NCBI GenBank assembly: GCA_963575745.1
Contig: CAUYUJ010011570.1
Coordinates: 1 to 64,000 of the forward strand
Direction: 5' to 3'
DNA length: 64,000 nucleotides
DNA from: Prorocentrum cordatum
Lineage: Eukaryota; Sar; Dinophyceae; Prorocentrales; Prorocentraceae
Each line of letters begins with the position of its first letter. Position 1 is the stretch's first letter. The notes below the pieces were generated by a model. It saw only the letters and a program-made list of their open reading frames with translations, did no database searches and was not told the DNA's origin. Below are positions 8,704 to 50,105 of this stretch, piece by piece. Made by a program: the position numbers and the translations under genes.

Positions 8704-9597
8704 CTAACTCGGGGCGTGGGCTCTGGACGGCGGGGCGGGTAAGGTTCCCCACATGTCACCGAATTCATGGTTCGGGCGACGCCAACCGTGCATCAGTCCA
8801 GGTCGACTTTCGAGCTCCTCCTCCGTCCTCCTCCTCCTCCTCCTCCTCCTCCTCCTCCTCCTCCTCCTCCTCCTCCTCCTCCTCTTGCATGGCGCTGGTT
8901 GGCGCCGCCCAGATGACAGCTTGGACCCTGTCGAACTCAGCGTTTCTAGCCCTGCGCCTTGCCTCCTCAGCGCGTTTGGCCTCGGCCCTCTCCCTCCTGT
9001 GTTTTTCCTCGGGGTACGGACGTGGATGACTCCTTCCAGCTTCCCGCGGGCGCCTGCCGCCCAGTTTCCTCTTTCATCCGCTTTGCAGTGCGATAGCCCT
9101 GCTCCAGGGGCCAAGGCACGGAGATGGAAGAGCGGCGAAAGAGGAACCTGGGCGGCAAGGCGGCCGCGGGAGGCATGGTTCGGAGGACGGCCCCTCCCCC
9201 GAAACAGCGTTCTGCCCTGGCACCTCCAACGATCGATCTCGCGCTCAGCCCTGTCGGCGACGACGTGGAGGGGTAATACCCTCCTCTCCTCCTCCTCCTC
9301 CTCCTCCTCCTCCTCCTCCTCCTCCTCCTCCTCCTCGTCTTGTTATCCTTCTTCTTATTATTATTATTCTTCTTCATCTTTTCCTTCTTCCTCGCCCTCC
9401 TCCTCATCCAGCCTGTCCATTCTGTCCAGGCTGTGCTCTGACTTCTCATCCGCCGCCTCCTCAACCTCCTCATTCAGAGTCTCGCTAGTTTGGACATCGG
9501 GGGGGGCGGGGAGCGCATCAGGCGGGGTGGTGATCGTACTAGGCAGCACGCGGCGTGGCCGTTTGTTCGCATTGGATTGCCATTCTTGGGCGAACAT
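8704..9597 (-). CDS. probable small intron-containing gene, acidic and coiled-coil (tentative exons)
   Basis: Three protein-like blocks on the minus strand are separated by (AGG)n tracts. The first starts at an ATG at 9597, 4 nt after a TTCTTCTAG acceptor-like site, and gives an acidic segment to about 9380. The second (about 9020-8890) reads EEKHRRERAEAKRAEEARRR and beyond, a charged helical segment ending in AAPTSAMQ. The third (about 8825-8704) reads ELESRPGLMHGWRRPNHEF and ends at a stop. The exons cannot be joined with certainty; the 9250-9030 region is ambiguous among frames. No family was recognised. It would be the downstream member of the minus-strand cluster. Confidence 0.35.
8816..9340. 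repeat. (CCT)n microsatellites
   Basis: Two pure CCT runs at about 8816-8884 and 9283-9336, likely within introns of the minus-strand gene read here. Confidence 0.9.
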
Positions 9598-19462: not shown

Positions 19463-21952
19463 CTACATGTCGAAAACGGAGCGAGGAATATCCTCGGCCT
19501 CTACATGCCCGGCTGCCTCCTGCGCTGGCGCCTTCATCGGTGCCGCCTGCGCCGCCGATGCCGCTTTCACAGGTGCCTGCGCCGCCGATGCATCCGAAGC
19601 CGCCGCCTGCGCCGATGCCACCTTCATCATCTGCTTCGGGATCTTCGCCAGCGGGGGCTCGGCTGCTGCTGGGCGCTTCATTGCCAGGTGCTGCTCCTGC
19701 TCCTCGCCAGGGTGCTGCTCCTCGTCGTCTTGCTCGGCCTCTTCCTCCTCCTCCTCCTCCTCTTCCTCCTCTTCCTGATCCTTGTCCGCGTCGCCCTCGG
19801 GCTGGGGGTCGAGGCCAGCATCATCATCGTCTGGCTTCTGTGCTGCCGATATCGGCCGCCGCGCTGCTGGTCGTTTCATTGCTGCCGAAGGTCTCTTTCT
19901 TGATGTTCCGTTAGCCTCTAGCCATGCTGCTTTCTCAATTTCCATCATCGGTTTATCCACTCTGCCTTTGCAGTACCGTTGCACCAGATTGATCAGCCAC
20001 TTTTTTGCGGACTCCTCATCTTTGTAGTTCATGAGTTGCATCAGCTGCCCCTTGTGCCTCACCTGAAGCCACCGTTTGTGCTGCTTGTTCTCGAAGACAA
20101 TCTTCACTCTCTCTCCGCTGGACTCCTCGATGCCCTCCCACACTGCTGCTGTGCCAGCCCTGCTGCCGCCCACACTCGCGTTCGCAGAGCTGCCAACTGT
20201 ATCTGGGACCTGCGCAGATCAGGCATTCGATGTGATCATCTATGGGGTCAGTTCTGCTATGGCCCGAAGGGGTCATACCTCTGACGGCGTCGGAGGTACG
20301 ACCCCTTCGGGCCATAGCAGAAACACATATGTTGACACATCGAATGCTTTATCATCGCTAACCTGCCAACTGAAACCATCTGGCCACGATGCCAACAGCG
20401 GCAGGTTCGCGTCGCTCTGAGCATGCGCCACCACCCACTCGACTTCTGGTTGCCCACGCTTCCCGCGCCAGGCGGACTGAGGGACCCTTCCTACTCCCCT
20501 GCCCATATAGGGATGGGGAGCGGGGAGGGGTAGCGAGTGTTTCTTCCCGTTCTGATTTTCATCGTCCTCCTCCTCCTCCTCCTCCTCCTCCACCCTCCTC
20601 CTCCTCCTCCCCCTCCTCCTCCTCCTCCGCAGCCTCCCTCCTCCTCCTCCTCCTCCTCCTCCTCCTCCTCCTCCTCCTTTTCAAGGAGGGGGAGGAGGAG
20701 GAGGAGGAGGAGGAGGAGGAGGAGGAGGAGGAGGAGGAGGGAGAAGGAGGAGCAGCAGCAGCAGGAGCTCCTGCATGTCTGCCTGCCAGCCCAACTCCCA
20801 GCCGTCGATGGTGGCGATCGTCTCCAGGCCTGACCTCCGACGCTCTGGTGCAGCTGCTGCTGGTGCTGGTGCTGGTGCTGCTGCTGCTGCCCCTCCTCCG
20901 TCAGCGCCATCACCACCAAAGAAGACGCGGGCCCACTCGGGGATGTGCGTCCTTCGGGGAGGCGCATCCGCATCCGCATCGCCTACATACCGTCTCCTCC
21001 ACTTCCTAATTCCTCCTTCCTCCACCTATCCCCTCTCGTCTCCTCTTTCCTTCCTCCACTTCCTCACTCGTCGTTCCTTCCTTCACCTCCCCCTTCCGCC
21101 TTCCCCCGTCCTTCCAGCATTCCCCAATCCCCCTCCACGTCCCACCATCCCTCCTCGGGAGGAGGGAGGAGGGCGTGGGCTAGTCGGGCCGAGTCGGAGA
21201 TCGATTGTGGACGTCGTCCTCGAAGCGATCTTCGACGCGTGCCGCAACATCGCCCTCATCATGCGGGCCTGGTCGTGGGCCCAATCCTGCGCCGACGTGG
21301 CTAAGTGCCACTGGCCCTCGTTGTCAGCCGCCAACATCATGAACACAGCCTGGAGCAGGAGGAGGAGGAGGAGGAAGAGGAGGAGGAGGATGATAGCCTA
21401 GTAGCAGTAGTCGTAGCTAGTAGTAGTACCCCCCTCCTCCTCCTCCTACTCCTCCTCCTTCCTGCTCCGCCTCCTCCTCCTCCTCCTCCTCCTCCTCCGC
21501 CTCCTCCTCCTCCCTCCTCCTCCTCCTCCTACTCCCCCTCCTCCTCCTCCGCCTCCTCCTCCTCCTCTTCAAGGAGGGGGAGGAGGAGGAGGAGGAGGAG
21601 GAGGAGTAGGAGGAGGAGGAGAGGATGAGGAGGAAAGAGGAGGAGCAGCAGCAGCAGGAGGAGGAGGAGGAGGAGAGGAGGAGGACCGTGGGGGGGGGGA
21701 GTCGTGCGGAGCGAGACGATGGGAAGCCATCAGCCTCTGCCGTCTTCTGCGCGATTCCTGTCGGAGCGACAGCCCTAGTCTCCTTGATCAGCATCCTGTG
21801 CTGCAGCAGCTTCTCCTGGTCGGGCTCCCCCTCCATGCATGTGGAGTACTCTAACCTTATCGCGTCATCCTCCTCCTCCTCCTTCTCCTCCTCCTCCTCC
21901 TCCTCGTCGTCGTCCTCCTCCTCCTCCTCCTCCTCCTCCTCCTCCTCCCCTT

Positions 21953-22796: not shown

Positions 22797-22925
22797 TTAT
22801 TTATTGTCCCACATATTTTTCGGGACGATTAATTGTCCCAAATGATGGTTCTGTGTCATCCAGAACAACAAGATGTGCCCGGACGAAAAAACTGTCCCAG
22901 AGGACCTCTGGGGATGGAGGAACCT
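22797..22925. repeat. hairpin-rich module at 3' end of retroelement (copy 2, inverted)
   Basis: CCCAGAGG-A-CCTCTGGG (22896-22912), CGAAAAAACTGTCCC and CGATTAATTGTCCC are the reverse complement of blocks at 7818-7915 in matching order; the 47-bp middle differs but also carries a small GTTCTG/CAGAAC hairpin (22848-22866). It follows the C-terminal coding end of the minus-strand block 22925-27028. Confidence 0.7.
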
Positions 22926-48080: not shown

Positions 48081-50105
48081 TCCGAGGCTTCTTGGGCGGC
48101 CCGACGCCTTCCTGGTTCTCTGCAATGCGTCAGAGATGCCGTTCCAAGGTGGCTTCAAAGACGGCTCAAGCAAGCACCAATGCTGCCGCGATGGCCTCGG
48201 ATGGCCCTCAGACGGCTCAATATGACCTCGAGACGGGCCAGGAGGCCTCCAGGACGGCCAAAGAGGGCTTCCAAACGGATCCCCAGTAGGACCGAGGAAG
48301 CAAACTTCATCGGCGTCCAGCAAATTTTGTTCAGGCTGAGGTCGGTTCAAGACGGCCTCAGCGGCCTCCAAGATGCCAAGATGGCTCCCAGACGACCTCA
48401 AGAGGGCCCCTAGGCGGCCCAAGACGGCCCCAAGAGTCCCGAGAGGGCTTCTGGAGGGACACAAGACGGCCTCAGAGGGCATCTCGACGGCCCAAGACGG
48501 CCCCAAGAGAACAACTAGACGACCAAGAGAGGACGCCAAGACGGCCCATGAGAGCCCCAAGACGGTCCAAGAGGGCCTCGGGGGACCCTACAGACTGCCC
48601 CGCAGGAGCCCAATACAGCCTCAAGACGGCCCGACGTGAGCTCCATGAGAGCTTCTCAAGGAAGGAAGACAAAAAAAGTTTCAGAGGTGACGGCCTCCAG
48701 CGCCCCCGGCAACAATCGCAGCCACCCAGAATGCTGGGCTGGCACGGTTGCGGGGCTTGCCGCACGCAGCTGCATGAACTTCCAGAAGTCTGTGCAGACT
48801 CTCGGGGTCGGTGCCCTCCCCGAGCGCGCTCCGCGCGCAGGAGGCGCCGCCAAGGGGGTGCCCTACGCCGACCCAAGCATTCCGTGCGGACCTCCTAACG
48901 TCTACGGCAAGCGGCAAGATCGTGCAGTGAAGACTTGTACGCTGGTCTGGCACCGCGCAGATCGTTCAAACTTGTGCCGATCGCCGGATCGCTTCGTGTT
49001 GGCCGATTCTGGGCCAGAGGCGGCGTTCAATCTTGCACGCCCGCGGCGCGGTCGCAGCCGCATCGACACGACACGAACAGACGTGTGCCCATATCCACTG
49101 CAGCTTGGAGTTCCTGGCTCTCTTCCCCAGAAACCCGAGGCGCACTGGATATGGATAAAAACTGGCCCCCAAAGGCCCGATGATTGTCTATATCCAATGC
49201 GCCTCGGCCTGGTGGCGCCCATTTCAAAACTGGCCAAGACGCACGGGATACGGATACGAATCTTGCCCACAAAAGGAACCACCGTACGTTTCTGTCGTTG
49301 TTCCTCGATCTCTCACCTCCCCCCTCTCGTCGCCGGCTCGCGGCTCGAAGCCCCGGTCGTGACGTCGGCGCTGTCGCCGCTGTTGCTGAGGCCGCTGGGG
49401 CTGCCCTTGGACTCGCCTCCAGCGGCGGGGGCGCGCAAGCATGGATTAGCGATCCATGGAGTTGGCGTGGCACCTCCCCCCAAATGCGGCCGGTGCCGCC
49501 TCGTTCGGCGGCGGAAATCTGCGATCTCCAATGGAAACGGGACCCGTCGCTGATCCACGCCCCCAAGACGCGGGCGTCGCGTTTTTCTCACACCGGGCGA
49601 TCTCGCCCCGTTTCGGGCCTCGGGGCCCTCACGGCTCGATCCAGCCTGAGACACGCCACGGGAAGATTCGGTCCAGGGCTGCAGCCGTGATTGTTGATCT
49701 TGCTGTGTGCTTGTTCGCGACGTCGGATCTCAGGGTCGGCGTGTGCAGCGCCAAGCTTGCACACATCTCCACATGGAGGGAATAAACGAAGGAGCGGGAT
49801 GGAGAGGAATGAACAGGAGGGGTGAGCGGGCGGAGGGGTGTGAGGACGGGGAGGTGAGATCGGCGACGGAGTGTCCGCGGGTGCTCGCAGCAGTAGGGAA
49901 GGCGGAGGCGGAAGAAGGGGGAGGGAGGATGTGGGAAGTGGGAGGATGCAGGAACGGAGGCAGGAATCTTCTTTCCTGAAACTGTCGATCCCCTCCAAAG
50001 GACAACATTATCTTTCTGTATTGGTCGTTGGCGGCCCAAGAATTCAACAACAAAAGACTACCAGAGACCCAACATACCAAAACGCGCCGTCCCGACGTCC
50101 TGGGC
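48081..50105. other. unassigned, with AAGACGGCC repeat family
   Basis: 48120-48640 contains many CAAGACGGCC and CCAAGAGGGCC words. 48640-49790 has long overlapping open frames on both strands (a 305-codon plus frame at 48636-49553) without motifs; I do not call a gene. 49790-50100 is purine-rich then unassigned. Confidence 0.45.

Follow-up and report, generated by a model that had tools for sequence, protein, structure and literature searches.

A 153-bp hairpin intron of Prorocentrum cordatum with introner-like architecture is probably an old resident of one gene family

Introner elements with terminal inverted repeats are known from dinoflagellates, and the work of Roy (Curr Biol, 2023) is reportedly cited alongside that on introners with terminal inverted repeats and target site duplications (TIR/TSD). 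In Symbiodinium and others such introners form families of many copies, according to the part of the survey drawn on here (Gozashti 2022, PMC9860276). A structural definition of introner elements was given for Amoebophrya (Farhat 2021, PMC7789003), and such elements were also looked for in Prorocentrum cordatum (Dougan 2023, PMC10666404): in the relevant sections of both papers, inverted repeats of 8-20 nt lie no more than 30 bases from either end of the intron, and direct repeats of 3-5 nt span the junctions. Introns with paired ends are presented in those sections of the latter paper as common in P. cordatum. The nonconventional introns of euglenids are characterized, in the sections of Milanowski 2016 (PMC4770533) used here, by non-canonical borders and by pairing of positions +4 to +6 with -8 to -6. 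We did not find the intron considered below described in the literature on introners and on dinoflagellate or Prorocentrum introns, supplements apart.

We have analyzed a stretch of 64,000 nucleotides of P. cordatum DNA (C11570:1-64000, hereafter the window), in which a first-pass annotation had proposed a whole intron to be an inverted-repeat element and a candidate introner of recent insertion. The coordinates of this 153-bp GT-AG intron, its minus-strand orientation, the perfect outer and inner arms of its two-tier inverted repeat, the GCAGGT across both junctions and the phase-0 joining of the two minus-strand exons without a frame break all proved correct (Table 1). On the gene strand the intron reads GTTAGCG...CTGCGCAG. 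The perfect inner arms of 23 bp extend to 30 bp with one mismatch, the outer 12-bp arms sit within a 23-bp stretch that is 83% complementary, and the two tiers are separated by a poorly matched stretch. The 12-bp arms lie at positions 16-27 of the intron on the 5′ side and 14-25 nt before its 3′ end, within the range published for introner elements, and the direct repeat of 6 nt is of the kind that accompanies them, although similar repeats occur in introns without paired ends (see below). The minus-strand intron folds at -96.2 kcal/mol (z -13.96), a value equaled by none of 200 dinucleotide shuffles, and in a repeat run (z -15.0) 80% of its bases were paired. The pairing begins 4 nt inside the donor and stops 2 nt short of the intron's end, as would that of the terminal inverted repeats of a TIR DNA transposon or MITE. 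At the same time the GT...AG borders, the kept phase and the AG|G acceptor are those of a U2 spliceosomal intron as judged by sequence, and GCAGGT, although present where a target site duplication would stand, comes close to the splice consensus. When the whole window was scanned for hairpins (gapless arms, spacer of at most 119 bp, low-complexity hits removed), three hits with scores of 27, 18 and 15 were kept, the intron being the top one; the weaker hairpins lie at 9055-9157 and 49135-49207 and have arms of 21 and 18 bp with one mismatch each. The intron is also flanked by an 18-bp direct repeat (83% identical, 20182-20199 and 20355-20372, 173 bp apart), for which we found no use.

Table 1 Features of the 153-bp intron, of its gene and of the introns compared with it (window positions unless a locus is named)
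Feature	Position	Strand	Remark
Intron, GT-AG, whole-length hairpin	20362 (GT) to 20210 (AG), 153 bp	-	folds; 12 of 18 paralogue places contiguous
Outer arm, 5′ side, 12 bp perfect	20336..20347	-	23-bp form with 0-1 mismatch in five gene copies only
Outer arm, 3′ side, 12 bp perfect	20223..20234	-	
Inner arm, 5′ side, 23 bp perfect	20300..20322; one-mismatch form 20293-20322	-	
Inner arm, 3′ side, 23 bp perfect	20252..20274; one-mismatch form 20252-20281	-	
Central region including loop, between 30-bp arms	20282..20292	-	
GCAGGT over 5′ exon-intron junction	20361..20366	-	forward strand ACCTGC
GCAGGT over 3′ intron-exon junction	20208..20213	-	forward strand ACCTGC
Upstream exon, conserved part (EVEWVVAH...WPDGFSWQ)	20363..20464	-	conserved in intron-bearing paralogues
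Downstream exon, conserved part (VPDT...KRPAA)	19853..20209	-	genome matches of joined-exon protein
Shorter alternative intron implied by protein P0001	20210..20278	-	donor GAG|GTATGA in loop, acceptor unchanged
213-bp intron, GC-AG, phase 0	L094 (gene of L073)		
230-bp intron, GT-AG, phase 0	L091 (gene of L074)		
295-bp intron, GT-AG, phase 0	L092, L093, L095, L096		
Example of the CTTTCGGAGCTCCGCGCGGATTTCTCGGATC hairpin family	C14163:53086-53116		in L099

The protein joined across the intron (...WPDGFSWQ|VPDTVGSS...) has at least 155 matches across the genome (1001 candidates, 150 scored). No Pfam family rose above its cut-off for the seven different proteins scanned, the domain of this gene family included, and a protein search with a longer query returned no match. 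Eighteen paralogue places, all outside the five copies of the gene treated below, were fetched. Twelve of them (L075-L078, L080-L083, L085, L086, L089 and L090), which amount to about seven distinct lineages since some are near-identical, are contiguous at the codon boundary of the intron and read, for instance, FTWA|VPDT or VSWE|VPGT; L078 aligns contiguously with a 3-residue gap just past the junction. The DNA at these twelve junctions is GCG|GTG, GAG|GTC, AAC|GTG, GAA|GTT, GCC|ATA, AGG|GTG or AGG|TTG. Four places (L073, L074, L079 and L084) are interrupted exactly at the intron site, and two (L087 and L088) are uninformative, their match starting at the junction. In wider fetches the upstream exon stops at the identical codon in the four interrupted places and also in L095 and L096. 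The comparison with intron-less relatives, which the first-pass annotation had proposed, thus supports the predicted splice boundaries to the base. Three further intron lineages, of 213, 230 and 295 bp, occupy the identical site, all in phase 0. The unrooted tree of the family, with backbone support of about 38-72, neither confirms nor excludes a single gain of the intron, the alternative being several losses.

The first-pass annotation had further suggested a search with the 23-bp arm, in which many near-identical copies would support the introner reading. The genome searched comprises 4,128,499,153 bases in 21,875 contigs. Within three mismatches the inner arm has 40 matches, against 1 for the reversed control; ten are exact and represent the two arms at five loci with the same flanking exons, and the other 30 lie elsewhere, each with 2-3 mismatches. 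The outer-arm pattern gave 176 matches, the ten with 0-1 mismatch belonging to the same five loci only; the weaker ones exceed the control (166 against 67), an excess that weighs against our main reading and of which some occurs as tandem arrays on individual contigs. A search with the intron and 30 bp of each exon led to five places, among which there may be alleles or assembly duplicates: the window itself, three others at 99% identity and one, on contig C13700, at 93%. Neither the arm searches nor those with the whole intron found near-identical copies as introns at unrelated sites. The duplicated unit that holds the intron spans several kb and contains other sequence besides; the intron was accordingly copied along with the gene. 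In three of the four other copies the right-hand end of this unit falls near window position 22912 (22912, 22912 and 22915), as if at a fixed boundary. Five copies of one gene were all that these searches found, an outcome close to the lack of other copies that the first-pass annotation had named as evidence against its proposal, and on copy number a recent dispersed introner was rejected, since the same kind of search with the arm of a hairpin found in dynein genes, CTTTCGGAGCTCCGCGCGGATTTCTCGGATC, serving as positive control, yielded 14,261 matches within three mismatches and none in its own control.

This second hairpin came from an independent sample of introns in dynein heavy chain genes (PF08393, 43 exon matches). 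Fifteen stretches that separate exon matches were retrieved, the longer gaps being passed over, and 12 were analyzed, the three above 1 kb (L103, L107 and L109) being set aside. The ends of L101 are approximate, and L104 seemingly contains two introns, of which one was taken. Paired ends were found in 7 of the 12 introns (matched by at most 4 of 300 mononucleotide shuffles) and not in the other 5, and a fold z of about -3 or lower in 6 of 12 (L105 rounds to -3.0), as against 3 of 300 background stretches of the window, from which low-complexity or intron-touching ones were skipped without being counted. In the all-against-all comparison four of the 12 (L100, L102, L104 and L111) had their own ends as best partners in both row and column, a weaker outcome than that given below for the four lineages at the site of the 153-bp intron. 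The arm CTTTCGGAGCTCCGCGCGGATTTCTCGGATC is common, by eye and with few mismatches, to 3 of the 12 (L099, L108 and L110) and does not occur in the window within three mismatches; the hairpin family that it marks is a far better introner-family candidate than the 153-bp intron. Two of the introns, L105 and L111, share by eye a second sequence, CGTCGCCACGG(G/C)TGGAT(T/C)CGCCTC. In L111 the frame-keeping donor is TC by the placement chosen, and a 12-bp inverted repeat stands at the border.

The dynein introns also bear on the view that GCAGGT is a 6-bp target duplication that supplied donor and acceptor. The borders of 11 of them were placed from the reading frames with AG|G preferred, and this preference favors junction repeats; the donors are GC, GA, GT and one TC, and the acceptor is AG in all 11, followed by G in ten. 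By eye, junction repeats of 3-8 nt are present in 11 of 11, with or without paired ends. The repeat is thus there as claimed, but it does not prove a target duplication, because introns without paired ends show such repeats as well.

The perfection of the inner arms had been taken as a sign of recent insertion, and this did not hold. Both inner 23-bp arms are intact in all four other copies, including that on C13700, which shows 88-96% identity to the window in 150-bp blocks around the intron and has 9 base differences from its near relatives in other parts of the intron; the arms are not significantly more conserved than the remainder of the intron (p 0.06) or than the region (p 0.16). In the downstream exon of the C13700 copy amino-acid-changing changes number 18 against 3, so this copy may not be under selection. 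The site itself is shared with divergent lineages. The 3′ half of the window intron aligns along its whole length with the 3′ half of the L094 intron (shuffle p 0.001), whereas the 5′ halves align weakly (p 0.02) and not collinearly. Together with the shared site, the alignment of the 3′ half indicates that the intron was present before lineages now at 57-61% protein identity split; it is older than several gene duplications, and its perfect arms do not date it. An orthologue in a distant species with an unrelated intron at the same site had been named in advance as evidence against the introner reading, and what we see comes close to it: the introns of the relatives are largely different, except that in the 3′ half of L094 60 of 78 aligned bases are identical.

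The hairpin character is common to all four intron lineages, with fold z of -15.0 in the window, -9.2 in L091, -7.4 to -8.2 in the 295-bp group and -3.1 in L094; the C13700 hairpin (-101.6 kcal/mol, z -14.0) is as stable as that of the window. When the first 60 nt were paired with the last 60 nt, z against mononucleotide shuffles was -9.6 for the window, -4.0 for L094, -5.0 for L091 and -6.3 for L092, and in 4 of 4 lineages the own ends were the best partners in row and column. A measure of symmetric pairing was weak for L094 and the 295-bp group (equaled by 9 to 25 of 200 shuffles). For compensatory evolution of the stem there was no significant support: in the comparison of the window with L094, 7 changed bases were re-paired where shuffles gave 5.7, and 86 of 300 shuffles did as well. 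When C13700 is placed on the structure of the other copies, five pairs are lost, a sixth has both of its bases changed yet still pairs and a seventh becomes G-U. On account of both results we do not claim selection on the stem.

Several other accounts of the intron have to be weighed. A protein, P0001, whose source label is eukprot Pyramimonas_sp., reads SWQ-VSDDKAFDVSTYVFLLWPEGVVPPTPSE-VPDTVGSS; in it the 5′ half of the intron is retained and read in frame as 28 codons, which implies an intron of 69 bp with a donor at 20279|20278, in the hairpin loop, and the acceptor of the 153-bp intron. The true intron could accordingly be the 3′ half only and the 5′ half of the palindrome exon, a reading that agrees with the stretch being open in 4 of the 5 gene copies and with GAG|GTATGA as its donor. 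One valine of P0001 is encoded in the window copy but in none of the other four, so P0001 comes from the window gene or a near-identical one. However, the 28-residue insert is absent from the 12 contiguous paralogue places, the C13700 copy has a TAG within the stretch, and the source calls the organism Pyramimonas. Moreover, P0001 breaks off precisely at CAG|GTGAGG, within a domain that goes on in the paralogues, and this points to an automatic gene model or a broken contig. We think that it is one of these, though it may represent a real alternative donor; that the 5′ half is exon is quite unlikely. Excision led by the structure, as discussed for the nonconventional introns of euglenids, would exploit a stem that brings the intron ends together (compare the relevant part of PMC4770533), but the borders here are GT-AG and pairing starts with +5 opposite -3 instead of the euglenid positions given above, and we regard such a route as extremely improbable.

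A different possibility is that two elements are nested, an older outer hairpin intron and a younger inverted-repeat element, represented by the inner arms of 23-30 bp, inserted in its loop. This would account for the poorly matched stretch between the tiers, and the inner arm does resemble the end of a dispersed repeat, with its 30 inexact matches as against one in the reversed control. The repeat in question has the ends CCCAGACCCC / GGGGTCTGGG and was seen at L019-L038, with lengths of 197 bp (L022) and 153 bp (L028). A search with its end yields 164 genome matches (control 0), and of 20 readable weaker matches of the inner arm many fall there. The consensus of 19 aligned repeat loci differs from the inner arm at 2 of 23 bases, these loci having been chosen by their likeness to the arm, whereas the commonest listed form of the repeat end differs by eye at about five of 23, a degree of likeness that by a rough estimate, made without computation, can be due to chance. 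Furthermore, the 3′ inner arm aligns with the intron of the nearest paralogue (shuffle p 0.002) and is therefore not private to the window copies; nesting is in our judgment unlikely. The original proposal, in which the intron is a recent insertion from a transposing introner family with TIRs, draws on the perfect inner arms with their junction repeat, on the paralogues that are contiguous at the site and on the existence of a large hairpin family in this genome. Against it stand the confinement of exact copies to five copies of one gene, the sharing of the intron with a paralogue as divergent as that of L094 and the junction repeats of introns without paired ends, by which it is largely refuted and left with very little probability. 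Of the introner reading as a whole, the structural definition, with its inverted and direct repeats, and the absence of the insert from 12 of 18 paralogues stand; recent insertion and a dispersed family are not supported.

The reading that we consider likely is that of an old GT-AG intron, predicted to be spliceosomal and of introner-like architecture, resident in one dinoflagellate gene family. In one branch of the family a hairpin (inverted-repeat) element would have inserted into the exon at this codon boundary and would then have been copied with the gene and drifted, with no sign of spread by itself. In the pre-mRNA the long stem would bring the donor to within a few bases of the acceptor, and the whole hairpin would be removed by the spliceosome; the stem may help to pair the intron ends in a genome with GT, GC and GA donors. 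A further scenario, which we hold to be improbable, is that the site is fixed and its occupant stays a whole-intron hairpin while the sequence turns over, the arms being rebuilt from each other. Such renewal could proceed by template-switch, by arm-to-arm correction or by selection on the pre-mRNA stem and, if true, would give each lineage its own palindrome, so that perfect arms would say nothing about age; the four lineages do pair their own ends best, but the covariation count is not significant. The 153-bp hairpin intron is a real feature of an ordinary kind, older than first proposed. It carries a caution for introner hunting, as a near-perfect hairpin with a junction repeat mimics a fresh insertion and yet is older than several gene duplications. 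A single gene family with the same site empty or filled with different hairpin introns also allows gain, decay and possible renewal to be traced in one genome.

Among known systems the closest in shape are the introner elements of Farhat 2021 and Dougan 2023, which, as outlined in the sections of those papers used here, have inverted repeats near both ends, a direct repeat at the junctions and a hairpin uniting the exon ends; in contrast to them the 153-bp intron is nearly all stem, is bordered by GT-AG and was found in one gene family only. With the TIR/TSD introners, in so far as they are treated in the part of PMC9860276 drawn on, it shares the MITE-like shape and the splice sites at the element border, whereas those form many-copy families and this one was found in five copies of one gene; the 4-bp TSD given there for Symbiodinium would here be indistinguishable from the AG|GT splice context. 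The dynein hairpin family comes from the same genome and likewise includes hairpin introns with paired ends (L099 and L110), but it differs in its 14,261 arm matches and its absence from the window at the threshold used. The intermediate introns of euglenids, as the consulted part of PMC4770533 presents them, also combine canonical borders with a stable structure joining the ends, although they belong to an unrelated lineage and their conserved pairing positions are not those seen here; the GT-AG borders and the pairing of +5 with -3 likewise set the 153-bp intron apart from the nonconventional class. As far as these sources define the classes, its structure places it among the introner elements of Farhat 2021 and Dougan 2023, whereas its copy number sets it apart from the dispersed introner families described by Gozashti 2022.
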